NCBI GenBank assembly: GCA_022819905.1
Contig: JAJEGJ010000104.1
Coordinates: 62,001 to 126,000 of the forward strand
Length of the DNA stretch: 64,000 nt
DNA from: Alphaproteobacteria bacterium
Lineage (GTDB): Bacteria > Pseudomonadota > Alphaproteobacteria > TMED109
Reading direction: 5' to 3'
Shown here: positions 7,085 through 57,125 of the stretch, in pieces
Position numbering within the stretch: position 1 is the first letter of the stretch
Layout: every line of letters starts with the position of its first letter
The notes under the pieces: model-generated
The model's database searches: none
Seen by the model: only the letters and a program-made list of their open reading frames with translations
What the model was told of the DNA's origin: nothing
Position numbers and translations under genes: made by a program

Positions 7085-7136
7085 GGAATGCGCGCTCCAA
7101 GTGACAAAGATGAGTGACTGCAGGGGATGACTACGT

Positions 7137-7963: not shown

Positions 7964-7978
7964 TCCGCGACGGGCCGT

Positions 7979-12186: not shown

Positions 12187-12191
12187 GATGA

Positions 12192-28372: not shown

Positions 28373-28387
28373 GTGGCGGATGGGGCG
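28373..28387. repeat. attL, left 15-bp direct repeat of the island
   Basis: gtggcggatggggcg matches exactly the sequence at 57032-57046, which covers the CCA end, discriminator and 3' acceptor strand of the tRNA-Ser gene. It lies 66 bases after the dehydratase stop and 186 bases before the integrase start, where an attachment site should be. Confidence 0.85.
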
Positions 28388-29895: not shown

Positions 29896-30102
29896 GTGTC
29901 GACCATTGACCGCATGCTGCGTCGCGAAGAGGTACAGGATCGGACCGGCCTGAGTCGTTCGGCCATCTACCGGCTGATGAGGGAAGGCCAATTTCCGCTG
30001 CCGCGCCGGCTCGGGCAGCGCGCCGTCCGCTGGCGGGAGAGCGACCTCGAGGCGTGGCTGGCGTCGCGTCCGCTGGCCACGGGCCGGAAGGCTGCCGCCT
30101 GA
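29896..30102 (+). CDS. AlpA-family helix-turn-helix regulator / excisionase-like protein
   Basis: The 68-residue protein from the GTG at 29896 has AGGAGG nine bases upstream. The sequence MLRREEVQDRTGLSRSAIYR followed by LPRRLGQRAVRWRESDLEAW is the MerR/AlpA-type winged helix found beside integrases of P4-like islands. There it activates or directs excision. The frame is open about 21 codons further upstream, without conserved residues. It lies between the integrase and the relaxase, as in many alphaproteobacterial integrative elements. Confidence 0.85.
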   Translation: MSTIDRMLRREEVQDRTGLSRSAIYRLMREGQFPLPRRLGQRAVRWRESDLEAWLASRPLATGRKAAA

Positions 30103-33200: not shown

Positions 33201-33357
33201 AGCCGCCGGTCGCGCACGAAGCGGGCAGGACTCTGCCGGCAAGGACCACGAACTCGACGGCGGCAGCGGGCGCCAACGGGGAGCCTCGCGCGACACCGCG
33301 AACGACAATGCCGCCGAGTCGAAGCAGAAGACGCCCGACCTCGACCTCGGGATGTAG
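30274..33357 (+). CDS. MobF-family conjugative relaxase with helicase domain (TrwC/TraI/TraA type)
   Basis: A 1027-residue protein that would nick oriT and unwind the transferred strand. The start is TTG (30274) followed by VASIGKIASPAQGVGYF, the conserved N-terminus, so the rare start is likely real. The relaxase domain carries SAPKSVSLMAMVG and the metal-binding histidines in FRHDTSRNLDPQLHTHCV near residues 152-168. The SF1 helicase part has Walker A GVQGYAGTGKTT near 450, Walker B VVDESSLAS near 534 and the C-terminal UvrD-like VHAFQGRTVDRI. The final ~100 residues are charged and repetitive (RDRGRGHQPAREP). The gene is very GC-rich and has no mating-pair genes nearby. Confidence 0.92.
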   Translation: MVASIGKIASPAQGVGYFEKDGYYTKDDGAHREASAWAGRGAEALGLAGPVDPEAFRGVLEGKVPGGRQLGRKEPDGSITHRPGRDVTLSAPKSVSLMAMVGGDERIVAAHDRAVGATLGWIERNAIETRLRDKATGAMVRAGDQKMVAATFRHDTSRNLDPQLHTHCVIANMVQGRDSKWRTMVDDGLFAHQKAIGAIYRAELAQGLGELGYGIAKSHPDGRFEIAGVSREVIDAFSTRRAEIEAAMAERGLGATADNPKLADRAALLTRAAKRDVDRGELGRSWRRQARALGFSAATVRAHARKAERGLAGPDLFAGPGYAAHDAAAWAVEHLSERQSVFGHADLLAATLAREPGAVTVEAAERAIAALERGGSLHAASGLDPGRHWSTDAALARESETIALMRGGQGAERMVMRRWVAETKLHRGRLNEGQKEAVKTILASKDRVIGVQGYAGTGKTTMLKRLRALAQSRGYRTIGLAPSASAAKTLASESGIRSETLQRYLARFEGIAEGRGTPAGLRKLRAANAKTMLVVDESSLASTAQMRNLLRIATALRLPRVVLVGDEKQLGAVAAGKPFAQLKAAGMQTAVMDDIVRQRDAELKAAVRASLTGDVKAAFAKLGGRIRQVGREDLGAETARQWLDLAPGARERTGVIAPTRALRDEINATIREGLVAEGAISGPARQGEKLVSRDLTRAEMARASTYNVGDTVIFNRPYKRIGVEKGDERTVTGIDRRWGTVHLADAAGNATLWRPGTLAAAKGGVEVYRSEAMELRRGDRVRFMRNDPAAGLTNGETATVESSGREGVVFRLDDGRVAKLGDGDAQLRHVDRAFAATVHAFQGRTVDRILAAMPAENPNLVNQRAFYVAISRARDAARLVTDDAWKLADTLERATGERLAALDATAKQAAWETVFGRDDDRGRADDHVARAPDAMDRGDDVARDGRDGHERGRDSGRDRGRGHQPAREPGGERDGKAAGRARSGQDSAGKDHELDGGSGRQRGASRDTANDNAAESKQKTPDLDLGM

Positions 33358-33931: not shown

Positions 33932-35224
33932 TTATGTTGCCTCTACCGCTTGAAGTTCGGTGTGGACGGAACCGGCTGTCCCGCCGTCACCAGATGATCC
34001 GTCAGGGTGCCGGAAACGGGGACTCGGTCCGTATCCCGCACCTGGGTGGGCTTCGTGATGACCTGCTAAAGCCATGTATTCGGCTGATACGGGCCGTGGT
34101 GGCGTGGCCGGCGGCACGGATTCCGCACGTGCAATTGCAAGGCCGGGATCGCGGTGAGCTTTCGCTCCGTAGAGCTGCGCCGCGATCGATCGACCAAGAA
34201 GCTCCGCTAGGAGAGGTGGAGTAGCATTTCCGGCTTGCCGAACTTGTTCTCGGTAGGTCCCATCTAGCCTCCAGGATTTCGGGAAGGTCTGAAGCCGGAG
34301 AATTTCTTCTGGCGCAAGAGGACGACTGTCCCAGTGAAAAGGTCCCGTGGCCGGTCCGGGGTTTGCAGGTACTGTCCAGGCAGGCCTGTCCTTAGCGAGC
34401 TTGAGAAGAAACGACCAATATCTGCGTCGGTATCCGAATAGCTCCGGTCCATCCCCCCGCTCGGTGAAAAACTGGTAGTTGAAACCCTCGGGGATCGATG
34501 GAAGTAATCTCGCGAAACGCCCAGTTGGTGCTGGTGGCGCCTCGGGACACACGTCGTGAAGCGCATCCCAAGCCCGCATCGGCCGCTCCCGATGTGTTGC
34601 AGTCGGCCACATTGGGCTCGCGCCACTGCGAAATGCAATCACGATCGCACGCCGGCGGAGCTGCGGGACTCCGAACTCCGCAGCATTGAGCACCCGACAC
34701 GCCAGTTTGTAGCGTGTGCCGCGTCGGCAGTTTATTGCCGAAAGGCGTTTTTCTAGGATCGGCAACGCTGAGCGCTCGCCCCTTACGAACCCCGGCACGT
34801 TCTCGATCAGGATCGCGCGGGGAAGTAGCCGCTCGACCAGGGTCAACAATCCTTGGAGGGTGTCCGCCCGATTATCGTCGAGCCCTCGAGCTCCGGTCTT
34901 TGCCCACTGCGCTGCCTTAGAGAAGGGCTGGCAAGGCGGTCCCGCGGCTAACAAGGCGAGTTCTCCTTCCGCAATTCCAAGGCGGTGCGGGACCAGAGCG
35001 CTCGCGACTTCGTTGATGTCGTGAGGTTTCAAATATGGGATCTGCGGGCGATTGAGTGCTAGGGAGCGTCGCGCAACCGCGTCGATTTCGATTCCCCCGA
35101 TGATGCTGAACCCTGCGTGCTCCAAGCCAAGGTCAAGCCCACCGATGCCCGAGAACGCCGACAAACAGAGTTGCTGTCCGTTGGAAAGGGGCTTTCCCGA
35201 ATTGCCAACCACTGTTTGCCCCAC
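33932..35224 (-). CDS. DNA (cytosine-5-)-methyltransferase
   Basis: A 430-residue C5-cytosine methyltransferase. Motif I AFSGIGGLDLG is at residues 23-33, the catalytic motif IV GPPCQPFS has C98, motif VI is IENVPG near 140, motif VIII is QLRRRAIVIAF and motif X is GNATPP near 335. The target-recognition region lies between VIII and X; its target site cannot be read. A low-complexity tail of ~80 residues follows motif X. It is downstream of the PD-(D/E)XK-like and ParB-like genes on the same strand (gap 159 bases). It could mark self DNA for that pair, or be the DruM-like methylase of a Druantia type II-like system. Confidence 0.92.
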   Translation of the reverse strand: MGQTVVGNSGKPLSNGQQLCLSAFSGIGGLDLGLEHAGFSIIGGIEIDAVARRSLALNRPQIPYLKPHDINEVASALVPHRLGIAEGELALLAAGPPCQPFSKAAQWAKTGARGLDDNRADTLQGLLTLVERLLPRAILIENVPGFVRGERSALPILEKRLSAINCRRGTRYKLACRVLNAAEFGVPQLRRRAIVIAFRSGASPMWPTATHRERPMRAWDALHDVCPEAPPAPTGRFARLLPSIPEGFNYQFFTERGDGPELFGYRRRYWSFLLKLAKDRPAWTVPANPGPATGPFHWDSRPLAPEEILRLQTFPKSWRLDGTYREQVRQAGNATPPLLAELLGRSIAAQLYGAKAHRDPGLAIARAESVPPATPPRPVSAEYMALAGHHEAHPGAGYGPSPRFRHPDGSSGDGGTAGSVHTELQAVEAT

Positions 35225-35383: not shown

Positions 35384-36328
35384 TTAACCAGCAAGCGGCT
35401 CTACATCTTCCCTGATCACGGCTTGGATGATGTCACGCTCGTCGGCTTCGATCTCATCCTTGTACCCGACCAGTCGGAGTCTATCCAAGACGATGGCTTC
35501 ACTCTTGGATGTCAGCCATTCCATCGTTGAACGTTCGACATGATGAGGTACGGCGAGAAACGGTGACGGTGGAACCCACGTACCGGTAAGGCTCTTCCAT
35601 TGGTTTGGGCTCGGTTCGTTGATTTTCTTTTCCCAACTATCGCTACTACCCACTGTGACTTGTCCGATGAATCCCCAGGTGCCAGGTCGAAGTTCCTCTT
35701 CCCATCTGAAATGGGACAGGATGTCCACCCCTTCGTCATGGGCCCTCTTGCGTCGCGGCACCGCATTTGGAGTCGCCTTGAGGCCTGCTTCTTTGCAAGC
35801 GTTCTGTAACGCACTCTCGAATGTGCCGCCTGCACGGCGATGTGCCGCCATCCCGCTCGCCAAAAGCCCCCGGAGTCGCAACACTTTCGCCACGATCCGT
35901 TCGAACATTTCGTGAGGCTGATGCTGTGATTGCACGCTGTATGCGTGTGCGAGCGTTATAGCCAACACGGCAATGTACGCGCTCTCCTCAAAATCGACGC
36001 TACCGTTGTATGTCACCGTTTCGCCCGTGGTCTCGAACGGATAACGACACGCCAGCACGTTGTGACGTTCATTGATCTGCTCGAATACGACGGAGGCCGA
36101 TTCGTGGGCACCGTCCAGCCGTTCGGACAACGGCGTCGCGTCGCTGTCAGCGGTATCACTCTCGGCAGATTGAATTAGCTCAAAGTCCAAGCTGGTATCG
36201 GCCAAAAAGTCCGCAAGGACCGCTCGTTTCACCGGTTCGCCCTTGAGCGCAAGCAGCTCAACTAAGTCCGCTAGCAACGAAGCCCGGGCGTAGCGGCCAT
36301 AGGTGTTGAGGTCAGACGCTGTGATCAT
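35384..36328 (-). CDS. PD-(D/E)XK-like nuclease-fold protein, putative restriction component
   Basis: A 314-residue protein that I cannot place in a named family. Near the C-terminus GVDILSHF (D202) is followed by WGFIGQVTVGSSDSWEKK (Q223, then K234/K235), the D...Q...W-x-x-K pattern of a PD-(D/E)XK subgroup in which Gln replaces the Glu. The N-terminal two-thirds is helical. Its start overlaps the end of the ParB-like gene by 17 bases, so the two are probably made together, and the C5-methyltransferase follows. Inference: the effector nuclease of a three-gene modification-linked defence unit. Confidence 0.65.
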   Translation of the reverse strand: MITASDLNTYGRYARASLLADLVELLALKGEPVKRAVLADFLADTSLDFELIQSAESDTADSDATPLSERLDGAHESASVVFEQINERHNVLACRYPFETTGETVTYNGSVDFEESAYIAVLAITLAHAYSVQSQHQPHEMFERIVAKVLRLRGLLASGMAAHRRAGGTFESALQNACKEAGLKATPNAVPRRKRAHDEGVDILSHFRWEEELRPGTWGFIGQVTVGSSDSWEKKINEPSPNQWKSLTGTWVPPSPFLAVPHHVERSTMEWLTSKSEAIVLDRLRLVGYKDEIEADERDIIQAVIREDVEPLAG

Positions 36329-37427
36329 CCTTATCCAGCTTCCCTTTGACGATGACTCGCGCCGAGTCTGCGAGCTGCGACAGTTCCTTCATGACCTGAA
36401 GCAGACTGCTCGAGAAATCGGCTGGCTCTGCGCGCTGAAGCGTTTCTAGGAATAACTTCACACTCTTCACTAACCGACGAGCGCGTGGCTCCAGCTCAAG
36501 CTCTTCGACGACTTGCCGCGCTAAGCTCAAGTCACCTGTCTTGCGCAGCGTTTCGCGTGCGCGCTCGTCAACGAGGGCACGTCCGTAGATCGTGACGTCA
36601 CGCGAATCTCCCAAGACTGCCCTGCTACGCCCACCTTCGCCTTTGAGATCTCCAAGCACCTCAGCGAGCTTGCGTTGGTCAACGCCCTCCAAGGCTTGTT
36701 CGATTTCTCCATGCGTCCGTGCCTGGCTGAGCCCGATGTAAGTCCTGATGTCTCCCGAATTCATGCAGCGCAACCAAACTCCAAATCTCTGATCCTGAAC
36801 ATAGGCAACGTCCAGGCCAAACTCCTCCCGCGCGTAGAGCAGGATGCGAATCGCGAGATAAGGGTTTCTGACCCCTTGCGCGTTGCTTCCAACCCGTCGG
36901 CCAAGTTCCCGGAAGGGATCGTCGAAGCCCTCTCCTGCGAGCCTGCGAACTTCGGTAAGGAGGTAGCGGGCCTTCGCCTCCGGCGGCCAAGTTTTCAGGC
37001 CGCCAATGTGTCTGAATCCGAGATAGGCATGTGCTTGGCCGCGATCTGAAATTGGGACGCAAGGAATCCTTCGAAGCTGCTCAAGCCGCTCAGCCGACAC
37101 CTGAATCCCAACAAAACTCATGTCGGCGGCCTCGGGCGATCCGTGCAGGATCTTGAGTGCCGCGAGCCGTCGGTTCCCCTCAACAACCGTGTACTTGTCG
37201 GTATCGGGCTCCTGGATGACCAACAGTGGCTCTTGCCGGAAGAAACCGTTGTCCCGAAACGAGTACGCAAGCTCTTCCAAAGCCCCCTCCGAATAGAGAT
37301 AACTCAGAATCTCGGACTGGGGCTCTCCGTGGAGTGGTTCTGGAAGCCGCGGGTTCTCGACATCGAAAATGAGGCTGTCAAAGGGAAGCCACAGGATGGC
37401 TCTTTCCGAAGGATCCGTGTCTATCAT
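36312..37427 (-). CDS. ParB/sulfiredoxin-fold protein
   Basis: A 371-residue protein with an N-terminal ParB/Srx domain: it opens ILWLPFDSLIFDVENPRL and carries the signature VVEGNRRLAALKIL at 81-94 (EGNRR is the nucleotide-binding box). The rest is helical, with no recognisable DNA-partition HTH. ParB-like proteins of this kind in defence loci can be NTP-dependent DNA-binding switches or nucleases. Here it is coupled by a 17-base overlap to the PD-(D/E)XK-like gene, and an IS5 remnant lies just upstream. It is not accompanied by parA, so plasmid partition is unlikely. Confidence 0.75.
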   Translation of the reverse strand: MIDTDPSERAILWLPFDSLIFDVENPRLPEPLHGEPQSEILSYLYSEGALEELAYSFRDNGFFRQEPLLVIQEPDTDKYTVVEGNRRLAALKILHGSPEAADMSFVGIQVSAERLEQLRRIPCVPISDRGQAHAYLGFRHIGGLKTWPPEAKARYLLTEVRRLAGEGFDDPFRELGRRVGSNAQGVRNPYLAIRILLYAREEFGLDVAYVQDQRFGVWLRCMNSGDIRTYIGLSQARTHGEIEQALEGVDQRKLAEVLGDLKGEGGRSRAVLGDSRDVTIYGRALVDERARETLRKTGDLSLARQVVEELELEPRARRLVKSVKLFLETLQRAEPADFSSSLLQVMKELSQLADSARVIVKGKLDKDDHSV

Positions 37428-37606
37428 TCACTGTGCTCCTTCATGAGGCGAGAGGAGATGACGGCGCGGCCCCGAGAGCAGAGTCTACGAAATCTCGAAC
37501 TTCATGATTGTTCTGATGCATTACAAGGGTGTGGTGAGGCGAATCGGAATGCCAGTAGCGGTGACCGGCGCACGCCACATGCCGGCGAGTTTCCCGGCCG
37601 GTGTTC

Positions 37607-37810
37607 CTAGTTTTTCGTCGGGCGGCGGTAGCGACCCAATCACGCAAAGAACTGCTCCACCGTCCAACGTGGCGGTAGCACCGCGAAACCCTTCTGTTCC
37701 TTGGGTTTCTCCACGAAGTGGAGCACCGGCGTTATGTCGATGACGCGGTCGGCTCGCATCACGCGAATTCGCTCTCATTCCCTATCCGTCAGGTCGGTCT
37801 CATAACGCGC
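37607..37810 (-). pseudogene. Decayed, internally deleted IS5-family transposase remnant
   Basis: Read on the minus strand, one frame gives RYETDLTDRE-stop-ERIR joined directly to a C-terminal piece KGFAVLPPRWTVEQFFA-stop-LGRYRRPTKN. The first part is the N-terminus and the second the C-terminal catalytic end of IS5-group transposases (usually YETDLTDREW and RWVVERTFAWLGR). Most of the middle is missing. Both stops are TGA where the family has TGG (Trp). The terminal TAG is at 37609-37607. It separates the ParB-like gene from the large helicase gene. I did not find its terminal inverted repeats. Confidence 0.75.
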
Positions 37811-38034
37811 CCCTGGGCGTCTAAACCTAGCCTGAGTAGCCTTGGTCTAAGCCATGGCAGCCTCCAGATGTAGTGCCTATGCCACATCGTATGACTTCGG
37901 GCTGGGGCTACTCACGAGTTTCCAATCAGTTTTGGAGATCAATTCTTCGTACGACGCCCGTTGCTGGCGACCGCGCCGCACAACCGTCCTCCTGGGGACG
38001 TCGCCACTGTCTCCGCGCTTGCTGCGTGGGATCG

Positions 38035-41000
38035 TTACCCGCTTGGGGGAGACGGCTGCAGCCAAGCGAATACGCGGGCCGGATGCCGCTGAAGAGTCGC
38101 GAGGTCGACGAACTGAACTGACTCGGTGCGGTGCGTCGCGCGTACCTCCGAATCAGCGGCCTCTTGAAGATCCACGAAGTACTCTGGTTCGGAACGCCAC
38201 AGTGGGTGCCCGAATAGCGCGGCTCGCCCCGTCGACGATGCCTTCACGCCGTGAAGTAGGCCCACCGTCACGCGCTCGAAGTCCGTGTGTTCACCGAAAG
38301 CGGCCACGAAGCTGTCGGCCAAAGCCGCGCTTCGGGAAAGCCAACGTGCGGTCGGCAGCGGATCGCCTTTCGCGAGCTGAATGAGGTCGACCGCCAGGCG
38401 CCAATCCAGATGCGGGTGAATGAACCTGTTGTCATAGCTCCGCAGGCAGTCGGGACACGAAGCGTCGCACTTCGCGTTGTGCGGCGGGGAGTCGATTTTC
38501 TCCGTGCTGATTTCTGTCGCCACCTCGTCGATGACGCGCCTCAGCACTTCCGGGGTGCCGAGATGCCTTGCGTAGCCGGCGCCGTTTTCCAGGGAATCCG
38601 CGATGAAGATGCGTCGCGTGACGGTGCCCGCGTCCGTCTTCCACGGCTGCAGCCCCACCTGAAGCTCGTTGGGGCTCACGTCCAGTTCGGCTGCCGCCGC
38701 CATCCGGAGGAGTTGAGCAAACGACCATAGCGCCGACAGCCCCATGGGAAGCACCTCGCTCGTGGTCTCGACGGTTCCATCCGGGCCTGGGATTTCGGAG
38801 CTTCGCAGGGTCAGCGTCAAGACGTCGGTTCGACGCACGGACCCGATGGCACCGACCACGTCGGGATCGCTGTTCCGAGGCTCGGGGCCACGGCGGCCGA
38901 CATAGAGCCCCGGGTCGGAAACCTCCAGGCCGTGGTCCGCCCGGTGCATCTCGAAGAGCAGTCCCTCGTTGTCGTTCACCGTGTAGACGTCCGCGTCCCT
39001 CTGGCTGCAGGCGTCGAGGCAATGTACGCGGGCAGATGCGGGATACGAACCCCCGACGGACAGTTGCGGAGGGGGCAGCAGCGGCCCGCGCTCCGCGTGG
39101 TCGTCGTAGTCCCGTGGCTGGAAGCTGGTGCGGAATCCGCGGGGCTGGTAAAGGTCGAACGGCTCAACCGACGACCCGCACACGCTGCACGAGCGAATGT
39201 CGCTCACTTCGATCGTCTGGGTTGCATCGCACTCCTGGCACCGGACGACGCGCTTCGGCGTACCCAGTGGATTCACCGGCGTGACGTTGTTTCCCCGGAA
39301 CTCCCAAGCGGCGAATCCGACGCAAAGATGCATCTTCTTGTCGCGCAGAACCTCCGCACCCGGCGCGAACGACGAAACCGCCATGTCCATGTCGCGCTCG
39401 CTGACCTTCGCGCGATCGACGTGAAAGGCGCTGCCGGGCGCTCGCTCGTACAGCGCTCTGACTCGTGTCGGAAACCCGAACATCGGCAGGAGGCCACCGC
39501 TGGCAAGTGTCTGGCTAAGCTCGGGCATCCTGTGCGCGGGGTCTTGGCTGACATTGTCGATCAAGTCCGCCAGTTCCTTGCGGATCCACGTGACCAGCGC
39601 TTCCGCCTGTTCGTCCAAGAACCCGGTTCCGGGGCGGAGGCCTTCGACAACGTCAACCACTGCCTCGGCGCTTGCCAGCCAGCCCCTGATGGCATTTCGA
39701 TGTTGCTCGTGCCAATCCGCGGTTGCCCCGAAGGCTCCATGCAAGCTCTCCCGGGTGGGGCGCGGGCCGGCCTTCAGGGCGAGGAAGGCCAGACGGAGGC
39801 ATTCCGCAGCCGCCACCCGGCGCAGGATCGGGGCATTAGTGTCGAGATACGGCTGCGGCGGCGGGTCGCCGGTAATCCTCTCGGCATGATTGAAATAGAA
39901 ATCGTCATGGGTGCGGTCGCGGCACATCGTGAGCGCGTAGGAGAATCGCTGCCCCGCACGCCCGGCGCGGCCCACCCTTTGTTGGTAGTTGAACCGCTGG
40001 GGCGGCATGTTGGCCAGCACGACCGCGCCCAGGGATCCGATGTCGACACCAACCTCCATCGTCGTGGTAACGCTCAGGACGTCGATCCCGTGGCTCAGGT
40101 CGCTTTCCTTCGGGGCAGTGAGCAGTGCGCCCTTGAAGCACCGTTGACGCCTGCGCTGCTCCCCGATCGGCTTCGTTTGCCCCGTGAGTTCCTCCACCTT
40201 CATTCTGCGAGGTGGTCGACCGGACAGCCATCCGTAGTAGTCATCGTCGCCGCCCGCCCGATCGACGGGGGCCAGCCGGGAGGAGTTGCAGGTGGGGTTG
40301 GTGCAGATCCCTCCCGAGCCGTTGACGTGGACGCGCGCGCAGATCTCGCACCGGAGAATCGTCGTCTCGCTGTCCACCAGGCGGATGCCCAAGGGAGCCC
40401 CTGCGGCGCTCGTGGCCAGTTGAAACAGGTCGTTGATGACGCCGGCAGACCGAAGGCGGGCCTCCACTTCCGAGGCAAGTTCTTCCGACGAGACAGAATG
40501 CTCGACGGCGACGGCTTCCAGGTAGCGGCGTAACGGGGCGGGCAGGTTGTCGGCAGGCGTACGCCGGGAATCCTCGAACTGCTGAGCAAGCCCGAGGATG
40601 CGAATTGCGCTGGCGAGCACCTCGCTTGCAACCGTAGGCGAGAGGCCGGAGAGCGTCAGATCCTGCACCGTAGGGACAACGGTTCCTAGACCGATGGCCT
40701 CCAGGTCGCGCCCCGCACGATCGAAGATCGCTTGCGCCACCTCCATCGCGAGGTGCCGGCGGAACCGATCACGGCCCGATGCCGCGGTTTCGTCGTCGAG
40801 TGGTTCCCAGGCTCTTCCGTCGGGCGGAGCGAACAGCCGCCACCAGTCCTCTCCCCTCCAGCGGCTTCGGGAAGGCTGCGGGCCTGCCGGGTTGACGCCG
40901 AGCCGAACGAGACGCTCTTCGAGACTGCCGACCAAGAGGCCCCAGGGCACCAAGCCGTGTTGGCGCGCCTGGACGCGCTCGAACGCGGCGATGCGCTCCA

Positions 41001-43425
41001 GGTCCTCTGCGTCGGCAGCGTCGCGGGCCCCCAGCCGATAAGCCGACCAGACGTCCGGGTGCGTGGCTTTGAGCTGCGCCAGAAGCTCCTGCCGATCCGC
41101 CGGCGTATCTCTGCCTGCGGCGGCGTCCCGCAGCAGCGCTGCCGGATCGGGTCGGGCACGGGCCTCGATCCGGATCAGCTGCCGCAGCAGGTCCCTGAAG
41201 TGGTTCAGCTCGAGTCCCGCCGCCGTCGCCGCGGCGTCGTCACGGCTGTCGGTGAAGACGATCGTTCGCGCGGCTGCGGGATCGGCTCCGAGATTGTCGA
41301 TGAGCCGGTCGACGAGGATCTGGGCGGCGACGGCGGTCCCCATCGTGTGGGCACGGACCGGGCTTCGAACGATCCCCCGGAAGAAGGTTTCGCGGGCGCG
41401 GTTGGTGCCCTCGCCATCGCACCTCGGGCAACGCTCCGGAATCGCGGGAATGCGTACCCCAGTCCCTTCGGGCACCCGTGACACAGCCATCATGGTGCCC
41501 TCGCCGCGCCGGCTCCTTCGCAGCAAGCCGAGGCGCGGGTCCAGTTCGGCCGGCACGAACTGGAAGGCCACGACGTCATGGGTCTCCGGGGTACTGTGGG
41601 TCCATCTCGGCGCGTCCGGGCACGGCCCGGGCCAAAACCACATGTACCGGTCGTAGGAACGACGGAACACCACGTCCTGTTCCCAGCGGGCCTGATCGGT
41701 GGCCCCGGACGTGAGATACCAGGCGCCGTCGTCGTCCTCCACGGCCTCGGCGAAACCGCCGAGAAATGGCTCGCCGCACTCGTAGCAGTAGAGCAGCTCA
41801 AGCACGCGGGATCCGCAGCCGCACTGGATCCGCGGCGTTGCGAAGAGACGGCCTACTCGCCTCGCACCTGACTGAAATTCCGGCGCGACCTCGGTGCAAT
41901 GCGGATTGCAGCACGCCCACAACCCGCGCACCAGCCGAAAGAAATGGTGGGCCCGGAAGCGCGAATCGCTGCCGGAGCCCTCGTCAGCGGCGACCGCCCA
42001 CAGAAGGCCCTCCATTCCGGCCTTGTGCTCCGGGCCACCCTCTTCCGCGAACACTCGGTCCGCCACTGCCGAGAGCGGCGTGGCGCGGCTGGCGCCTTCG
42101 TGCATGCAAGCGGACGAAAGCATGCCCGGCGCGTTGTGATCGGCGCACAGGGCGGTCGCCAGGCTCCTGCGCCGCAGCAAATCGGTCTCTTCCATGAGTT
42201 GGGCGAACGGTCGGCGCGGGACCGGGACCAGTGGTGGCGGCTCCTGAGGTTCGCCCGGGACGATCTCGAACGTCTCCGCCGGAACACCAAAGAACTGCTC
42301 GGCGAACTGGCGGCCGGATTCGCCCTCGAGCGACGCGCTTGTGGCGATGATCCGCAGTTGGGGGGAGTCCGGGGAAAGCCCCAGTCGCCGCAACAGGTTT
42401 CGCACGATGAACGCGACTTCGGTCCCCTGGGTGCCTCGATAGGAGTGAAGCTCGTCGACCACGAGCGTGAAACACTGCTCCGGGTTCGATGCAAGCCAGC
42501 GGCGGGTGGCCTCGAACATCGGGGCCTCGCGTTCCCGCATGAGCATGACATTGGTCATGGAGTAGTTGGTGACGAGGATGTCGGGAGGACTCGCCAGCAT
42601 GTCCCAGCGCGACAGCAGTTCGCCCCGACGGGGATCGGCAAATTGGGACGTGACCTCGGGGTCCCGACCCTCAAGCTCGTCACGGATGCTCTCCATCTCG
42701 AGCAGCTCGCGTGCGACACGACGGACGGTCGCCTGGCGTCGTCGTTGTGGCACGTCGCCCAGCCCCAACGTGGCGCTGGTGTAGCGCCCAAAGAAGATTC
42801 CCGGGGCAGTACCTTCGCCCCCGGCATTCTCCACCGCCCGTCGCAGGCGGGAGACCTGATCCTCCACCAGCGCGTTGGTGGGATAGAGGATCATTGTCCG
42901 AATGGCGGCAGCTCGCTTCTGGTCGGCCCTGCAGTCGCGCCAGGGCTCCCCGTCGGTTTCCCACCACCGAACCAGATCGGGCTGAGCACCCCAAGTCCGC
43001 GCCTCCGCAAGCAGCCGTGCGAACACCGGCAGGAGAAAGCACTGCGTCTTCCCGGACCCGGTTCCGCTTGTCACGATCACGTTCCTCGGTTCCCGTCCGC
43101 CCCCGGACAGGGAAACGCGGAGCGACTGCGCCTGATGGACCCACAGCTCGAACCGGCAGTCTGAATCGAAGAGCATTGCCCCCAGCTGATCGGCCATGCT
43201 GCGGTCGAGTTGGAGGCCCTCGCACACTTCCAGGATCGTCGGTCCCGAGAGGTAGGTCGGGACCGGTTCGATCAGCGCATCTTGGAAGACGTTGCCGGCC
43301 TGCTGGAGCAGCTCGCGCCGCTCCGTCATCAGCGCGTCGTCGCGAAGCCAGAACGCCGTGTCGAAGTAGCGCAGGTAGCCTTCCTCAATGGCTGCCTGCA
43401 ACTGCGCTGGATCCGGTGTGCCCAT
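38035..43425 (-). CDS. Giant DEAD/DEAH helicase with DUF1998 domain, DruE-like
   Basis: A 1796-residue SF2 helicase. Walker A is TSGTGSGKT at 119-127, motif Ia [13 protein letters not shown] near 178, the DEAH-box variant VVDELH at 322-327 and motif III SAS. Cysteine pairs around residues 515-560 (CNPHC, CGCG, CYECG) and 660-680 (CPRC) suggest zinc sites. The second RecA-like part includes [11 protein letters not shown] and [15 protein letters not shown]. Near 1650 the DUF1998/MrfA hallmark [14 protein letters not shown] appears. A fused helicase-DUF1998 of this size is characteristic of DruE of the Druantia anti-phage system. DISARM has the two parts in separate proteins. It follows the 1063-residue partner by 27 bases. 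Confidence 0.85.
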
Positions 43426-43452
43426 CCTTAGTCGTCCGTGGTCATACTGCGG

Positions 43453-46400
43453 TCAGTCGCCGGCGGTGGCCGCCGCCCAGATCGCCTCGGCAACAGCAGG
43501 CGGAACGTGTTCGTACGCCAGGGTCCTGTCTGAGCGCCGATGCGGGAGTCGACCGCTGCACAGTACCGCAGCGCGCTCAAGCAGCCCGGGGAGCGGCGCC
43601 CCAAGCGGTGTAAGCAGCGTTTGGGCCGACGCGTCGTAGCCGATCAATGCGAACGAAGCGTCGCTTGCCGCAAGATGCTTCACGATACGCACGTCCGCCA
43701 CAACTCTTCGCTGATCGGGTGTGCCGGACTCCGGCACGACCGCATAGACCCACGGCCTGCCGCGCAGCCGATAGGCCCCTGCATGATCCATCTGCTCGAC
43801 GGACGTCCAGCGCCCCGAGCGCAGGTCGAGCCACTCCATTCTGTCGGCCGTCGTGGTCAGTTCCGGCAGCAATCCGCGGACGGTGCTCAGGGACGGGAGG
43901 AGCGCCGCGATCTTGGCCGCGGGACGCACCGACAGTTCAATCGGCAGCCGGTGCTGCGCCTTGATTTCGTCGACGACCAGCTCTGCCGCCTCGGACCCGA
44001 GTCCGTGAATCTCCACCACGTCAGGCCCCTCGTCTTGCGGGGCGACGCGCACTTCGCCATCCAAAATCTTGGAGACCTCGGCAACCGTCCGCAGGAGCCG
44101 GGCCGACCGGCTGCCTGTCAGGAAGCAGGGCCCCTGCTCGGGAACGACAATCGTTGATGGCGCGATCGACCATCGCTTGGGCATGAGTGTCTTTTCGTCT
44201 GACTCATGCTCGATGTGGCCCAACGCCTCCAAGCGTCGGGCCGCTTCATGGGGAAACCATGGCGCATCGTCGATCGTGGCGGTGACAGCGCGAAACGATC
44301 TCCACGAGCCGGTTCTGGCGTACGACAGTGCGTCGAGCGCGAGGTTCATGTCGGACTTGCCCCGTTCCGAGATCGAGGGGAGGGGCGGCCGCCGCGAAAT
44401 GTCTTCACCACCGTCGTGCGTTGGGGCGGCGGCCGCCTGCCGTCGCTTGCGATGCTTCTTGAACGGCTCCCACCATCTCTCCCGCCCGCAGTCCTTGCAT
44501 ACGCTGTAGACGGGTTCTTTGCCGAGCTGCATGTCAAGGCGCCAGTGGTGGTATCCCCGCCTGAAGCAATCCGGCAGATCGTCCGGAGTGCCTTCCAGTG
44601 TCGCTTCGGCTGGGTTCCAGTCACTCAATTCCAGGTCTTCTACTTCGATCGACACTCCGGGCTGGGCCGGGATCCGTGTCAGGATGTCGGCGCGATCCTC
44701 AACCTCTGGGCACCCATCAATGTCAATCAGGGCGCCTGCGGCATGGTCCGCCCTTCGGCCGGTCTCCTCGATGCAGCTACCGAAGGGAGCCAGGCAGCTT
44801 CCGTCCAGAAGCGGATGCCCGAGCGGCGTGTCCTCTTCGGGCTCCAATCGTCGCGGCCAGGATCCGGACCGCGCCCGCAGGCTGGCAGTTGCAATGGCCC
44901 GGCCTCCAGATGCGCCCGCGACCACGACGCGGAAATCCCCGTCGCGGAGCATCGGCAATCCGGTCAGGTCGATTATTCCGGCGCCCGTCACCTCACCGAG
45001 CTGCACGTCGACCGGCTCTCTGTCGTCGAGATATCGAATCGGCACCGCGCGGACATGAGCTTCATGGGTCTCGGCGTACTCGTCGACCACGATGCGCAAC
45101 TCGGGCAAGCGGTCGCTATGCCACACGTTCATGCCCGGAAGCGGCAGGCCTCCGCCCAGCGCCAGATGCGTTCGCGCGATCGGCTGAAGCGGCTTCAGGT
45201 CATCGTTGTCCGTGTTCGGAATCCGCTCCAGTTGCACGTTCGCGAACGCCGTCCAGCCCGCGGGCAGTCCCCGCAACGTCTCGCTGGTTAGTTCGCCGAA
45301 TCCTTCCCGTGCAGATGACCGCAGAACATTTCGCACCGGATCGGCCATTTCGTGGACGGTGAGAACGAAGTAGGTCTCCAGCAGCTCGACTCGCCGTGTT
45401 TCGACGAACAAGTGGTCTTCTTCGCGCCACTTGAGCAGGACCAGGCGCTTGGCACGACGCGCGCACGTGACGTCGGTTTCCGCCAGCGCGAGCAAGACAT
45501 CGGCAACCAGAAGGGCCGAGCAGGAGACAAGATGGCTGGGCTCGACCGAAGCCCAAGAGGTTCCCGGAATCCGCTCGAGCCTCATCGCGTCGCCGAGTCG
45601 AGCAAACGTCGTCCGGGCTGCAGAGGTCGCATCCGGGTGCAGAACGGCCCGGCGAGGGCGCTCCCGGCTGCTGTGACGGGCGACCAGGATCAGTTCGATA
45701 GATCGACGCGGATGGGACCTGACTTCCGCGGCGAGCAGGAGGTCATCGTCTCTTCGGACTTCTGCTGACCGGAATTCGTCAGGAAGTTGGCCGTCCCAGG
45801 CTTCCATCTCGGCGCACGCAATCTCCGAGATTCTCTCCCTGGTGGCGGGCTTCGACCACAGTCGCTTGAGAGACTGCGTGACCGGCGAGCGCGGCAGCCA
45901 GTCTGCCAGCAGTTCCTGCATGGCCTGAACAGAAACCCGCTGACCGGGCTGCAGCCCAAACTGCGTGAACAGCATCGGCAGCTTGGCGCGATCCTGCTCA
46001 CGAACCAGCGCCTGCGAAAGCGGCAGTCCGATGTAGCGAAGACGATCGAAAGCGACGGCGGTGGGCAGGCCCCGGCGGCCGTTGCATTCCTCCAGCCACC
46101 GGTTGAGGGTGTTCCACAGAAACGGAGTTTCCTTGCGGAAGTTGCGTGTCACCGTGTCCCGGTGCGCTTCGTCGATATCGAGCGTTTGCAGGAGCCGCCC
46201 GTAGTAGTTCGTCCCGGCAAACTGTTCCGTTTGCTTCATGCTCTCGGCCACCAGGGACAGCACGGCAAGCACCGCGATGCATGGTGGCGGCACCGTACTC
46301 TCCTGGAGCCCCCACCACCAAGCCCGCGACGCGTGGACGCCAAACGGTCCGGTCTCGCCGTCGGGACCGGAAAGGGTCGCCTTGACAATCCCGACCAGCT

Positions 46401-46644
46401 CCTCGGCTGGAGTGGCCTTGTCGCTGAAGCTCAGGTCGCCGGCAATACGAGTCAGGGCGTCGTGGTCAAGATCCAGATATACGGGCCGGCCGGCCGCCTG
46501 CTCGCCAAAGACCTCCTCTGCCACAGCTGCGTTCAACGCATCGTACCGTGCCCAATCCGGGTCTTCCGAATATCCCGCCGTGATCAATTTGGCCATGTTC
46601 GCCGAATCGGCCAGGGTCGGAGAGCAGGTTTCGCCTTGGGGCAT
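43453..46644 (-). CDS. Large partner of the DruE-like helicase (DruH/DruG-like)
   Basis: A 1063-residue protein with no catalytic motif that I recognise. It contains an incomplete zinc-ribbon-like CKDCGRERWW near residue 730, a Trp-rich segment and extended beta-rich stretches. It ends 27 bases before the helicase gene and is surely co-transcribed with it. Known Druantia type III consists of DruH (about this size, function unknown) followed by DruE. Identification as DruH-like rests on size, order and partner, not on a motif. Type II DruG is the alternative. M17 (46596) is another possible start; neither start has a clear ribosome site. Confidence 0.65.
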   Translation of the reverse strand: MPQGETCSPTLADSANMAKLITAGYSEDPDWARYDALNAAVAEEVFGEQAAGRPVYLDLDHDALTRIAGDLSFSDKATPAEELVGIVKATLSGPDGETGPFGVHASRAWWWGLQESTVPPPCIAVLAVLSLVAESMKQTEQFAGTNYYGRLLQTLDIDEAHRDTVTRNFRKETPFLWNTLNRWLEECNGRRGLPTAVAFDRLRYIGLPLSQALVREQDRAKLPMLFTQFGLQPGQRVSVQAMQELLADWLPRSPVTQSLKRLWSKPATRERISEIACAEMEAWDGQLPDEFRSAEVRRDDDLLLAAEVRSHPRRSIELILVARHSSRERPRRAVLHPDATSAARTTFARLGDAMRLERIPGTSWASVEPSHLVSCSALLVADVLLALAETDVTCARRAKRLVLLKWREEDHLFVETRRVELLETYFVLTVHEMADPVRNVLRSSAREGFGELTSETLRGLPAGWTAFANVQLERIPNTDNDDLKPLQPIARTHLALGGGLPLPGMNVWHSDRLPELRIVVDEYAETHEAHVRAVPIRYLDDREPVDVQLGEVTGAGIIDLTGLPMLRDGDFRVVVAGASGGRAIATASLRARSGSWPRRLEPEEDTPLGHPLLDGSCLAPFGSCIEETGRRADHAAGALIDIDGCPEVEDRADILTRIPAQPGVSIEVEDLELSDWNPAEATLEGTPDDLPDCFRRGYHHWRLDMQLGKEPVYSVCKDCGRERWWEPFKKHRKRRQAAAAPTHDGGEDISRRPPLPSISERGKSDMNLALDALSYARTGSWRSFRAVTATIDDAPWFPHEAARRLEALGHIEHESDEKTLMPKRWSIAPSTIVVPEQGPCFLTGSRSARLLRTVAEVSKILDGEVRVAPQDEGPDVVEIHGLGSEAAELVVDEIKAQHRLPIELSVRPAAKIAALLPSLSTVRGLLPELTTTADRMEWLDLRSGRWTSVEQMDHAGAYRLRGRPWVYAVVPESGTPDQRRVVADVRIVKHLAASDASFALIGYDASAQTLLTPLGAPLPGLLERAAVLCSGRLPHRRSDRTLAYEHVPPAVAEAIWAAATAGD

Positions 46645-47280: not shown

Positions 47281-47625
47281 ATGGATAAGGGAGATTTGCT
47301 TGTTAAGGCCCACTGTTGCCTACTTCACCAATACAATGGTTCGACGATGTCCGCTGCCGCCGAAATGTAGGCCTAGGAACAACTGGGCATGAAGAAAACG
47401 GCGAGAGACACGGACGGTTTCGACGGGCGCCTTCCCGACGGCCAAAAGCTGCAAGTCAAATCGAAAAAGGCTGGTGCTCATAAGGACTCCGCAACTTACG
47501 TCACGCTATCTCAAGTGACGCTCAAACTGGCCGACGACTTGCTGATCGTCTTTCGCTGCCGCATGGCACCGTTTGACACACTGATACGGCGGACGAATCG
47601 CCCGCTTCCGCCGAAAAAGCCATAG
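47281..47625 (+). pseudogene. Broken small nuclease-fold gene (two in-frame TAG stops)
   Basis: From ATG 47281 one frame reads MDKGDLLVKAHCCLLHQYNG ... AAEM, then TAG (47368-47370), one codon, and a second TAG, then EQLGMKKTARDTDGFDG and GQKLQVKSKK to the stop at 47625. The pattern DGR..GQKLQVKSKK is a D...Q-x-K nuclease core of the PD-(D/E)XK type. The two halves read as one ~115-codon protein whose middle has acquired stops. The C-terminal half could still be started at ATG 47389 (78 codons). It is directly upstream of the PGN_0703-like gene, overlapping by one base. Confidence 0.6.
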
Positions 47626-48617
47626 TGTCCGGTGTCCATTTGAGCTTTGGGGTCCGTGAGCGGAAGCGCCAGGCAGCGTTTCGCACGGGGCTCACCACAC
47701 CGTCGGACGCCATTGGACGCCGGCACGGACATCTACTTGCGCTCGGCTACGAGGAAGAGAATCTGTTTCCGGCGCTCCGGGGCGAGAACGGCGCGTCTCG
47801 ATACTTTGCAGAGCGCAACATCAAGTGGTGGCGGGCGACCAGGAGTGGTGACGCCGTCGGTGGGAAAGGTCCGACCCGGAACATGGCGAGTTCACAGATC
47901 GCGTGCGTGAACTTCCTGCTTCCCCTCGTCGACATTCCCGGGGCCCTGACAGCGGTGCTCAAGGCCGTCGACGACGATGTCACGGGCGTCAAGGACATCA
48001 AGTACCAGGGGACCTCTTCTCCGGTCGAGTTCGAGTGGATCGGGCTCAAACATGCGCTGGAGGGCCCTTCGGTGAAGAGCCGCGGTGCGAACTCGACCAG
48101 CGTCGACGCCTTCATGGTTGCCGAGACGACCGCTGGCCTTCGGGCGTACCTGATGGAATGGAAGTATGTCGAGGAGTACCAGTCCGAGGACAAGGGAGAG
48201 GGACAAGCGGGCGAGACACGGCGCCGCAGGTACGCTCACCGCTACAAAGAGTCCCCTTCGTTCAACGGCAACGCCCCCTTCGATGCGTGGCTCTTCGATC
48301 CGTTCTATCAAATCCTGCGGCTTCGCCTCCTGGCTGACCGGATGGTCCGGAGGCAGGAACTCGGGGTCGCCGACGCAAGGGTCATAGTCGTGGTGCCGAA
48401 TGAAAACCGGGCATACCGCGAATGCGTCACGTCGCCGTGGTTCCGACGGAAGTATCCCGATCAGACAGTTGCCGAAATCGTGCGACAAACACTTGTCCAC
48501 CCCCAGCACGCGTACGGATCGATCTCACCGTCCCTGTTGGCGAACTCCGTGCGGGAGAGATGCGGGGCAAACTTGGCATCGTGGAGTTGCTACCTGCGAG
48601 AGCGGTACGGATGGTGA
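47625..48617 (+). CDS. PGN_0703-like putative restriction endonuclease
   Basis: A 330-residue PD-(D/E)XK-type protein. The N-terminal part shows LLALGYEEENLFPALRGENG and IKWWRATRSG, followed by ASSQIACVNFLLPL, typical of the PGN_0703 family. The active site is visible as TSVDAFMVAE (D161) and LMEWKYVEEY (E178, K180). The GTG start at 47625 shares a base with the preceding stop; the first ~30 residues are not conserved, so a later start is possible. No methyltransferase is adjacent on this strand. It is either an orphan nuclease or part of the surrounding defence cluster. Confidence 0.7.
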   Translation: MSGVHLSFGVRERKRQAAFRTGLTTPSDAIGRRHGHLLALGYEEENLFPALRGENGASRYFAERNIKWWRATRSGDAVGGKGPTRNMASSQIACVNFLLPLVDIPGALTAVLKAVDDDVTGVKDIKYQGTSSPVEFEWIGLKHALEGPSVKSRGANSTSVDAFMVAETTAGLRAYLMEWKYVEEYQSEDKGEGQAGETRRRRYAHRYKESPSFNGNAPFDAWLFDPFYQILRLRLLADRMVRRQELGVADARVIVVVPNENRAYRECVTSPWFRRKYPDQTVAEIVRQTLVHPQHAYGSISPSLLANSVRERCGANLASWSCYLRERYGW

Positions 48618-48659: not shown

Positions 48660-49583
48660 CTATTCGCGCTCCCGTTCCTTCTTGGAAACGCTTACATCGA
48701 CCGCCAAAACTCGACGTGGATAGGTCAACTCGTCTACCCCTAGGTTCTCATCGACCGGTTCCAAGAAGCGCCCAAAACGCCTATCCACCTCCTCTGTCGA
48801 AAGCAGTTCATTAACCTCAAACAGAGAATCAAACAGTTCAGTCTCTGTTTTGATCCACTCAGGAACTCGCCGGTGCTGAACCACTTTGTCGTCGCTGACA
48901 CTAGTTTCGGGTGGCAAGAAGGCCAGCAAATCCACTTGCTCCATGGCCCTTTCACAATCGAAAATGCAGCGCCATGGGAGGGCTGATGCAGTCTCATGAA
49001 TCGCCGAAAACTTACGACGACCGCGGAGTTTGATAGCGTGGCGAATGTGCCGGGACGGCACAAAGGTGCACCCGAGCTGCTCGGTGTCGCACCCTTGACA
49101 GCAATGCCAGTAGTGAGTTTGTGGGGGTAGCTGAGCCAAGTAATTGTAAAGCAAATAGAGCGGGATAGCTCCCCACGATCGTGCAAACTTATCCAATTTG
49201 TCGATCTGAGGGATTCCAGACGTGTCTTTGTGGCTGAGCGCGTGATAGCGACCAGTGGGATAGAGCTTTTTCGCTTGGATGGCTAAGCGTCGGCCCGCAC
49301 CACCGGGGTATCTGATGCAAATTAGTAAGTCCGCGCCGGACCACGCCTCGTCTCGTTTCGTCGGGTGGTAGATGCGGAATGCATTGATCCTTTGATGAGG
49401 GATCATATCTAGGACAAGGAGGTCCGTAAGTGTCTCTTCGCCGAGACGTGCCCCGAGAACGTGGGCTCGTTCTAGACGGCGCCATGTCTGCGCGGCAATA
49501 GATTCTGCAGGAGTCATCGGGACTGAACTAATCGGCGTAGTCCCGTTTCGTAAGTTCCTTGGCCTGAAGTCTTCGCTGAGCAA
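48660..49583 (-). CDS. DUF6615 family protein, nuclease-like
   Basis: A 307-residue protein. ARLGEETLTDLLVLDM near residue 45, then TKRDEAWSGADLLI (D85) and GRRLAIQAKKLYP (Q103, K105) match the DUF6615 pattern and form a D...Q-x-K core like that of PD-(D/E)XK nucleases. A cysteine cluster CCQGCDTEQLGC near 160 may bind zinc. It converges on the PGN_0703-like gene with 42 bases between the stops. Function is not established; the setting among restriction genes suggests defence. Confidence 0.65.
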   Translation of the reverse strand: MLSEDFRPRNLRNGTTPISSVPMTPAESIAAQTWRRLERAHVLGARLGEETLTDLLVLDMIPHQRINAFRIYHPTKRDEAWSGADLLICIRYPGGAGRRLAIQAKKLYPTGRYHALSHKDTSGIPQIDKLDKFARSWGAIPLYLLYNYLAQLPPQTHYWHCCQGCDTEQLGCTFVPSRHIRHAIKLRGRRKFSAIHETASALPWRCIFDCERAMEQVDLLAFLPPETSVSDDKVVQHRRVPEWIKTETELFDSLFEVNELLSTEEVDRRFGRFLEPVDENLGVDELTYPRRVLAVDVSVSKKERERE

Positions 49584-50372: not shown

Positions 50373-52853
50373 TTAGTCGTCAGAGCCTTCTGTCGCCTCG
50401 CTGGATAGTGTAGACACGATGGCGCGCAGTCTCTCGAATTGCTCCTTGATCCACTGCGCGGCCTCGGGCCAGTCGCTGTCATCGTCGCGGTTCCAATTCG
50501 TCTGGACGGAGATCGTCGTGCCATCTGTGCTGTTCTTCTCCAGGTTCCCCCCGAGCACTTGGTCACCCATCTCCTCGCGGATTCGAAAAGAACACGCACG
50601 CATCCGCGCCGCCCTTTGTGCTGACGGCTGGCTCGCTCCTGACCGGATGTAGAGCCGAAGTAGCTCCGGGCCGACGTACATCCCGACCCTGTCGCCCTCC
50701 CCGTTCAAGGGACTCGTCCACTGCGACGTTCCTCGCCAATAGTGCTTCTGCCCCGGAACGCCACCTTCGCGTTCCTTGAAGAGCTTCCAGAACGCTTGGG
50801 TCCGAGTGTTTTCTACGAATTCAACCTTGACAGCGACACCGCAGCGCTCGCCCATCTTCCGGCAGCGCTCGGCGCATCTGGGGTAGTCCTGTCCGTAGGG
50901 GTACAAGACATACTCTTCGTGCCCCGGCACCGCGCGCATGGTAAGCGTGCCGGCCGCGGTATTGGGTGGATACCGGCTGGCCAAATGCACATTCGAACTG
51001 ATGGACTCGCCTGAGAGTCTTTCGGCGTTGGCTGGGTCCTGGCTCAGGAGAGCCGCCGCAACGTTCAGTACCATCTGGCTTGCAGTGCTCTCTGCGCGCC
51101 AGGGATCATCCTCGATCCGCCAGCGGAGTTTGGCTGAAGGCGTCTCGCTTTCGCGTGCGGGTGCCGGCTGCTCGGGCCAGGGCCAACGGTCGAGGGCTTT
51201 GCGTGCGAGAAATCCCGAGCGCCGTTCAAGCGCCTCTTCATTCCATTCCGTTTCGTCCGCGAGGCTTCGCGTAATCCCTATCGAGCTCTTCCGGTATATC
51301 TCCCGCTTCGCAGCGAATGTGCCCGCACCCATCACTGTGTTGGTGACGTCTCCGCTCAGCGTCAGGTTGGGAAGCCGGTCGCGATGGCGCCCGTGAATCT
51401 CCTCCGCGTCATCGCCTAGGGATTCTTTCCACTCGTCCGTGAGCTTCTGCGGAATTACATGCTCGATTGTCAGACGGTCACGGGCCGGCGACTCTTCTCC
51501 ATGCTCGGCTTCCATCAGTTCGCAGAGGACTGCGAACGCCGATAGGGTTGCGCCCCCTCCATAGGCCTTCCGGGTTCGAATTCCCTCCCTGACTTCCTCG
51601 TCTCCTGGCACCCCCACTCGCGTGTTGCGGAGCCGCTGGAGCCTGCCGAGCCAGTAGTCGACATAGTCCTCCCCGGCGCCTGGTCCCGGTCCATGAGCGA
51701 TCTCGGCCGCAGCCTTGTTCATCCCGGCCATCGGGCGCTCGGCCAACCACATGCGGGTCGTCCACGTGCCGATTCCTGCAAGGACCTTCGCGAGTGCTTC
51801 GTTACTCTCCTTGGAATCGCCATCTTCGTTCGCGTCGCTCAGCAATCGCAGTGTCAGGGGCCGGTGCACGTCGATCCGCATTGCGCGCAGATGACGCAGT
51901 TCTCTCTCTACCTTCCGATTGCGATGGTGTTCGCCGGTGCCGGTGATGGTCCCGTAAAGTCCGGCGAGGCGGGCAAGATCACGACAGAGGGTCGGTCGAT
52001 TTCCGGCAAGTCCCTCACGCACCGCCCAGCGTCGCAATCCCTCGTAGGCGCGATCGATGCCTTGGATTTCCCCTGTCCGCCAGCGAAGGACGTCCCGAAG
52101 GAACACATCCGTGGGGTCGGTCGTGTGCTCAGCGCCCAGCGTTCGCTCGATCCGAAGCCAGTAGTTGTCGTGGAGGTCCTGCTGTTCCGCGTCCGGTAGC
52201 CCCATAAGCAGCCAATTCTTGACCTTCTCGCTCTCGGTGAGCGGCCTGCCGGTGGCGTTCAGGCTCTCGAAAATCTGTTGGGGGTCCTCCTTCTGTTCGA
52301 GACCGATGCTGACGACCCGGAGACGCTTGAGGCCCTCGAAGAGGCGCGTCACGTCGTTCCGCGCAACAAGGCGGCGCGCAATTCTCCAGGCTTGGCTCAC
52401 TGCACCTGCACCTGTGGGCGTGCCTTCGAGGCCGAGACGATATTCGTCGTCGTCGCCATGTTGGAGCCTCAGCTTGCGGTGCTTCTCCGGGGGCATGTCG
52501 CGATTCGTCAGTCGAACGTCGCGGATCAGTTGCGCGGTCCATTCACCGCATCGCCCGTCAGGCCCCAACGCTTCGGCAATGCACGCCAAGAGGATGCTGA
52601 CGGTGGTCAGCCGCTGCTGACCGTCAACGACACGGATGGTCCTTACCACGCCGGCCGGTCCCGGCTCCGGGAAGGTGAGGAGCGTGCCGCCATAGTGCGC
52701 TACCTCGGGCCCGGCGACCGCGACGGTAAGAAGATCCTCGACTAGCCTTTCGATGTCGGCCTGCGCCCAGCGGTAGCGACGTTGCCAGCGTGGCACGACG
52801 TACTGGACCTGTCCGTCCAGAAGATTGAGGAAGTCGATGTGTTGAGCATCCAT
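50373..52853 (-). CDS. GmrSD-like DUF262/DUF1524 endonuclease (type IV restriction family)
   Basis: An 826-residue fused protein. The DUF262 (ParB/Srx-fold, NTP-dependent) part has VPRWQRRYRW near residue 20, VVDGQQRLTT at 75-84 and FESLNATGRPLTESEKVKN near 220. The DUF1524 His-Asn-His nuclease part has LTIEHVIPQKL near 463. A C-terminal extension of ~250 residues is unassigned. Characterised GmrSD and BrxU proteins cut modified phage DNA, using nucleotides to drive cleavage. It lies downstream of the type IIG gene on the same strand (gap 133 bases), so the pair could attack unmodified and modified DNA respectively. Confidence 0.85.
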   Translation of the reverse strand: MDAQHIDFLNLLDGQVQYVVPRWQRRYRWAQADIERLVEDLLTVAVAGPEVAHYGGTLLTFPEPGPAGVVRTIRVVDGQQRLTTVSILLACIAEALGPDGRCGEWTAQLIRDVRLTNRDMPPEKHRKLRLQHGDDDEYRLGLEGTPTGAGAVSQAWRIARRLVARNDVTRLFEGLKRLRVVSIGLEQKEDPQQIFESLNATGRPLTESEKVKNWLLMGLPDAEQQDLHDNYWLRIERTLGAEHTTDPTDVFLRDVLRWRTGEIQGIDRAYEGLRRWAVREGLAGNRPTLCRDLARLAGLYGTITGTGEHHRNRKVERELRHLRAMRIDVHRPLTLRLLSDANEDGDSKESNEALAKVLAGIGTWTTRMWLAERPMAGMNKAAAEIAHGPGPGAGEDYVDYWLGRLQRLRNTRVGVPGDEEVREGIRTRKAYGGGATLSAFAVLCELMEAEHGEESPARDRLTIEHVIPQKLTDEWKESLGDDAEEIHGRHRDRLPNLTLSGDVTNTVMGAGTFAAKREIYRKSSIGITRSLADETEWNEEALERRSGFLARKALDRWPWPEQPAPARESETPSAKLRWRIEDDPWRAESTASQMVLNVAAALLSQDPANAERLSGESISSNVHLASRYPPNTAAGTLTMRAVPGHEEYVLYPYGQDYPRCAERCRKMGERCGVAVKVEFVENTRTQAFWKLFKEREGGVPGQKHYWRGTSQWTSPLNGEGDRVGMYVGPELLRLYIRSGASQPSAQRAARMRACSFRIREEMGDQVLGGNLEKNSTDGTTISVQTNWNRDDDSDWPEAAQWIKEQFERLRAIVSTLSSEATEGSDD

Positions 52854-57031: not shown

Positions 57032-57046
57032 GTGGCGGATGGGGCG
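57032..57046. repeat. attR, right 15-bp direct repeat overlapping the tRNA-Ser 3' end
   Basis: gtggcggatggggcg, identical to 28373-28387. It covers the encoded CCA, discriminator and 3' acceptor strand of the tRNA-Ser gene, the usual core for tyrosine-integrase insertion, and leaves the tRNA intact. Confidence 0.85.
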
Positions 57047-57125
57047 GGATTCGAACCCGCGATACGGCTCATCACCGTATACTCCCTTAGCAGGGGAGCG
57101 CCTTCAGCCGCTCGGCCACCCATCC
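57033..57125 (-). tRNA. tRNA-Ser(GCU)
   Basis: Read on the minus strand: acceptor stem GGATGGG (57125-57119), D arm GGCCGAGCGGCTGAAGGC, anticodon stem CTCCC/GGGAG with loop CTGCTAA (anticodon GCT at 57091-57089), a long variable arm TACGGTGATGAGCCGTA as in class II tRNAs, T arm GCGGGTTCGAATCCCGC, 3' acceptor strand, G discriminator and encoded CCA. Length is 93 with CCA. It reads AGC/AGU codons and is the insertion target of the island. Confidence 0.97.

Follow-up and report, generated by a model that had tools for sequence, protein, structure and literature searches.

The window, as we call the whole 64,000-nucleotide stretch of DNA analysed here, carries a rare pair of neighbouring genes for a Druantia-type DruE helicase and a DruF partner, which is probably an anti-phage system. 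The reading we prefer, with a probability of roughly 55%, is a two-gene Druantia core from the II/IV branch, in which DruE is paired with a long DruF that has a DruL-like C-terminal part, with the cassette next door being a separate system. The two minus-strand open reading frames are 27 bases apart, with the 1063-residue gene upstream, and lie where the initial annotation had placed them:

38035-43425, minus strand: DruE (1796 aa), a YprA-family SF2 helicase with an MrfA-type Zn-binding domain
43453-46644, minus strand: DruF, long form (1063 aa), matched by PADLOC model PDLC00023, 27 bases upstream of DruE

A chance pair of reading frames can be dismissed, since both give full-length profile matches (1570 and 546 bits) and have syntenic relatives with 57-72% identity at locus L005.

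By sequence, the window helicase falls among the DruE proteins of Druantia's II/IV branch; it is of the DruE2/DruE4 kind rather than DruE3. In PADLOC, the DruE2 model PDLC00015 covers residues 5-1791 of the 1796-residue protein with 1570 bits, and the other scores are 1498 bits for a second DruE2 model, 1452 for DruE4, 574 for DruE1, and at most 398 for DruE3. Pfam finds the DEAD, Helicase_C, and MrfA Zn-binding (formerly DUF1998) domains, and a motif scan agrees, which bears out the initial description of a helicase with a DELH box and DUF1998. The motifs start at residues 121 (Walker A, GTGSGKT), 324 (DELH), 1149 (motif VI, QRVGRAGR), and 1653 (Zn-binding, CDASCPDC), and the helicase motifs are intact in the window and invariant across relatives. 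The full-length DruE2 score, the Pfam domains, and the motifs together support membership of Druantia through DruE. The closest solved structures are PDB 9wae (E=1e-153), which carries the bare name 'Helicase', and 9tu7 (E=1e-52), and the MrfA structure 6znp is far below 9wae (E=2e-8); a better match to the MrfA type, which the initial annotation had named as an outcome that would overturn it, was thus not seen. An HKD nuclease motif (HxK(x4)D) was sought in the DruE sequence and not found, in line with the DruE C-terminal nucleases of Druantia I and II, which are predicted to be inactive (PMC12458937). A DISARM reading was tried and dropped on its profile scores, as PADLOC gives at most 38 bits for DrmA and 62 bits for DpdJ, both partial matches to helicase segments alone, and finds no DISARM or Dpd gene set in the window.

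The DruF partner had been described as a protein with weak visible features that might be DruH, DruG, or a new subunit. Profiles instead place it over its full length in a known family, DruF. The long DruF2 model PDLC00023 in PADLOC matches residues 29-1055 (546 bits, 5.3e-164), the other long DruF2 model matches end to end (538 bits), and short DruF2 and DruF4 models cover the first ~500 residues (30-500) and nothing beyond. The DruL4 model PDLC00057 matches the C-terminal third (residues 803-1057, 5.2e-20). Going by the boundaries of these matches, the partner looks like a DruF-DruL fusion with DruL at its C-terminus. It matches DruF and DruL models alone, and not an unrelated family as the initial annotation had allowed for. 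Conserved cysteines in the DruF alignment (C693..C716-x-x-C719) form a possible zinc site, and the position of the start codon is uncertain because homology to relatives begins at about residue 34. Structure prediction of this protein, a check proposed at the outset, gave an AF2 model of moderate confidence (mean pLDDT 66), and a fold search of the model against the PDB gave no usable match (best E=0.05). Viral contigs searched with DruF gave no match, and promoter and terminator scans gave signals at the chance level or lower.

The Druantia-like part of the initial annotation stands, as DruE2 and DruF2 match at full length; its type III part does not, with DruE3 at 398 bits or less and DruF in the place of DruH. 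Profile searches with DruE, DruH, DruG, and DISARM models had been proposed, and they gave DruE, neither DruH nor DruG, and partial domain matches for DrmA. The DruH model PDLC00038 finds nothing in the partner or across the window's genome, and the DruG models PDLC00024 and PDLC00025 remain without a match across this genome (96% complete) even at an E threshold of 1. The DruF and DruE of type II are both present at full length (PDLC00023 and PDLC00015). The PADLOC paper defines type IV by DruL in addition to DruE-DruF and by the absence of DruM and DruG (PMC8565338). DruL is seen here as the C-terminal part of DruF alone (E=5e-20), and the two reading frames do not form the type IV layout of separate DruF, DruL, and DruE genes. 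In its predicted gene content, the window pair is an exact fit to neither type: it departs from type II in having no DruG, and from type IV in having no DruL gene of its own.

The pair is located in a ~28.7-kb region at a tRNA-Ser (28373-57046), which by its annotated features is a defence-loaded integrated mobilizable element. Host genes for RNase H and a PALP enzyme flank it, and it contains:

28373-28387: left att-like direct repeat of 15 bp, an exact match to 57032-57046
28574-29740, plus strand: tyrosine integrase (Pfam Phage_int_M 6.5e-25, Arm-DNA-bind_3 5e-14), broken by one in-frame stop near 29345
about 29905-30102: AlpA-like regulator
30274-33357, plus strand: TrwC/TraI-type relaxase-helicase (Pfam TrwC 1.2e-85)
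47625-48617, plus strand: REase-ARP family PD-(D/E)XK protein, upstream of DruF
48660-49583, minus strand: DUF6615 protein, convergent with the REase-ARP gene, upstream of DruF
50373-52853: GmrSD-family type IV restriction-like protein (826 aa)
52987-56685: MmeI-like type IIG restriction enzyme-methyltransferase (1232 aa), adjoining tRNA-Ser
57032-57046: right att-like repeat of 15 bp, at the 3' end of tRNA-Ser (57033-57125, minus strand)

The initial annotation was silent on this mobile element, on the ParB cassette next to DruE, and on the usual third gene of the relatives. The cassette and the gap in front of it are as follows:

37428-38034, minus strand: gap of 607 bp between DruE and the next gene, with a degenerate IS5-type transposase fragment containing in-frame stops
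36312-37427, minus strand: ParB-N-like protein (371 aa; TIGR00180 1e-7, PADLOC PD-Lambda-5_A 7e-18)
35384-36328, minus strand: 314-aa protein, whose gene shares 17 nt with the end of its ParB-like neighbour
33932-35224, minus strand: C5 cytosine DNA methyltransferase (430 aa; PF00145 2.9e-40), with core motifs intact

Pieces of the IS5 fossil lie at 37610-37690 and 37778-37804, with tblastn matches to IS5 family transposase records (E=4e-3); Pfam gives no match for its 38-aa fragment. We read the three genes as an independent restriction-like cassette beside the Druantia pair, on the evidence of their company elsewhere. The ParB-like gene matches P2-like phages in tblastn (2e-33 to 6e-18), and a ParB homologue is followed by a 314-aa homologue in all eight loci of P2-like phages and plasmids, with a convergent C5 methylase after this pair in three P2-like phages. 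The ParB gene, the 314-aa homologue, and the methylase are also kept together in 16/16 complete IMG/VR loci; these loci were retrieved with three query proteins and form three close groups, so they do not amount to 16 independent events. The window methylase scores 202 bits with the DruM2 model PDLC00026 and 190 bits with the general MTase_II model in PADLOC, and it lies in this separable cassette. Because the trio is conserved without Druantia in P2-like (pro)phages, the methylase is not clearly DruM; it is probably the partner of the cassette rather than DruM, and might possibly be counted as DruM.

PADLOC, Pfam, and NCBIfam assign the 314-aa protein to no family. Its own family conserves G200-x-D202, Q223, and W232-x-x-K235, a pattern in keeping with a PD-(D/E)XK-type nuclease, and we infer that it is a putative nuclease of this type. 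Its AF2 model is of low confidence (pLDDT 56), and a PDB fold search gave no match. A single-sequence match to designed repeat proteins in the PDB was rejected as repeat-summed noise (~4 bits per repeat), and the readings of the gene as DruG or as one of the known restriction enzymes were likewise rejected, as no profile matches it. Viral contigs searched with the window's 314-aa protein gave no match. We also note a phage 314-aa homologue split by an inserted gene (L024, 2998-5139), and a phage-like scaffold carrying two pairs of the ParB/314-aa type, one on each strand (L020, 3297-7863).

A profile built from three long DruFs found seven genome loci, and tblastn added two plasmid loci, nine in total. 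A long DruF is followed by DruE in 9/9 of them; the contig of L010 stops inside DruE. Directly after DruE, a P-loop gene of ~655 aa is present in 7/7 complete loci (L003, L004, L006, L007, L008, L009, L011), overlapping the DruE stop in most of them. These P-loop proteins are 39-82% identical among themselves and give weak UvrD/AAA and NERD signals. DruG models give no match at the relatives' loci, so by profile the gene is not DruG, and we regard it as a candidate new Druantia subunit. The window contains no trace of it, and elsewhere in the window's genome there is a weak 91-residue match (E=4.6e-4) and nothing more. Each of the seven complete relatives has a C5 methylase at a distance of at most 10 kb, in varying positions and orientations, and in five of the seven a type II restriction enzyme goes with it, MvaI/BcnI in L003, L007, L008, and L011 (that of L003 taken from existing annotation) and MspI in L006. 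These methylases and restriction enzymes appear to be exchangeable restriction-modification neighbours of the long-DruF loci. In L004, from Shinella, the region 1325-11765 also holds a DndH-like 1817-aa protein, family-less genes of 503 and 702 aa, and a C5 methylase, and the DndH-like group runs divergent from the Druantia genes.

The nearest relative, L005, is 57% identical in DruF and 68-72% in DruE, and its metagenome-assembled contig ends 295 bp past DruE. Its DruE (7051-12426) is split over two frames, by a frameshift or an assembly error. Within the window's sub-clade, the downstream side of DruE is therefore fully visible in the window alone. The L005 assembly, which is possibly incomplete, holds a 71-residue P-loop match to the ~655-aa gene and nothing further. 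The long-DruF family is rare: besides the window's genome, it was found in 0/398 sampled genomes of the phylum and 0/27 of the order, and 384 other genomes of the class gave one weak C-terminal match.

How such a pair may act can be proposed from its relatives. In type III, DruH is the sensor, and DruE loads onto 3' single-stranded DNA, with cutting by its C-terminal PLD domain (PMC13192584); in mycobacteria, a DruH-DruE pair keeps phage DNA from circularizing (PMC13316683). By homology, DruF and DruE of the window would form a complex in which DruF might be the sensor or gate for DruE loading. DruE would then load where DNA exposes 3' single strands, as its type III counterpart does, and block or unwind phage replication intermediates. 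As DruE has no obvious active nuclease, any cutting would fall to DruF itself or to other nucleases. A bolder form of this proposal, which we hold to be rather unlikely, is a minimal two-gene Druantia that arose by fusion of DruL to DruF and does without DruM, DruG, DruH, and a recognisable DruE nuclease, with DruF as a combined sensor and effector switch, and with relatives in which this core is joined by C5 restriction-modification modules that can be exchanged.

Two genes may be too few, since the ~655-aa P-loop gene is present in every complete relative. The pair could be a truncated Druantia that lost this gene, or DruG, by insertion and decay and is now inactive or partly active. The IS5 fossil directly after DruE could mark such a loss, and the integrase of the element is also broken by a stop. 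Yet neither DruF nor DruE is shortened and their motifs are conserved, the window retains no remnant of a third gene, and neither does the L005 assembly, itself maybe incomplete, beyond its short P-loop match. Truncation is thus a possible but doubtful account. That all five genes cooperate as a type II system, with the methylase at 33932-35224 as a DruM marking self and the ParB and 314-aa proteins replacing the missing DruG, or with DruG simply missing, is still more doubtful. The slightly better score of the methylase with DruM2 than with type II methylases (202 vs 190 bits), the C5 methylases near all seven complete relatives, and the common strand of the five genes argue for it; against it, P2-like phages carry the trio without any Druantia, 607 bp with an insertion sequence fossil separate it from DruE, DruG is absent from the genome, and the L005 genome assembly has no ParB homologue.

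The two remaining accounts are far weaker. A non-defence DNA-repair helicase of the MrfA/YprA type would share the YprA fold and the MrfA Zn-binding domain with DruE, but it is highly improbable given the far stronger DruE models and PDB 9wae, a dedicated DruF partner, a mobile defence island, and a rare, patchy distribution. Type III (DruH-DruE), as initially annotated, has in its favour two neighbouring genes of similar sizes and a helicase with DUF1998; the profiles already refute it, with 1570 bits for DruE2 against at most 398 for DruE3, a partner matching DruF and DruL models alone, and an empty DruH search across the genome, and the window DruE has no HKD motif, unlike type III DruE (PMC13192584). 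We therefore keep to the two-gene core of the II/IV branch.

The type III pair is now known in detail, but for types II and IV the literature we searched described no mechanism; the role of DruF would be simple to approach in a compact DruF-DruE pair. In the relatives, the P-loop third gene is constant and the methylase and restriction enzyme families change, which questions DruM as a true subunit. Given these long-DruF relatives, DruM may alternatively be part of an adjacent restriction-modification system.

Compared with known systems, the cassette resembles those of P2-like phages (e.g. WPhi gp98-gp96-mth) in its three genes (ParB, a ~310-370-aa protein, and a C5 methylase) and in the overlap of the first two, whereas the phage methylase is convergent, all three window genes are co-directional, and identity is 17-34%. 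The long-DruF loci of Rhodobacteraceae, Shinella, and Pseudidiomarina (L003, L004, L006-L011) share with the window a long DruF followed by DruE and a nearby methylase; they differ in having the ~655-aa gene after DruE, and their DruE is ~40% identical. Type III shares the two-gene layout and a YprA-family DruE, but pairs it with DruH in the place of DruF, and its DruE has a C-terminal PLD nuclease with an HKD motif that is absent here. Type IV (DruE-DruF-DruL, PADLOC 2021) is similar in that the window has DruE, DruF, and DruL sequences and no DruG; here, however, the DruL-like part is fused to DruF, and DruE and DruF favour type II models. Type II (DruM-DruF-DruG-DruE) provides these best models, DruE2 and DruF2, and has a methylase as its DruM, whereas the window genome is without DruG, DruF and DruE are adjacent, and the C5 methylase belongs by synteny to the ParB/314-aa cassette. 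These comparisons place the pair as a variant within the known Druantia systems, in the II/IV branch rather than III.
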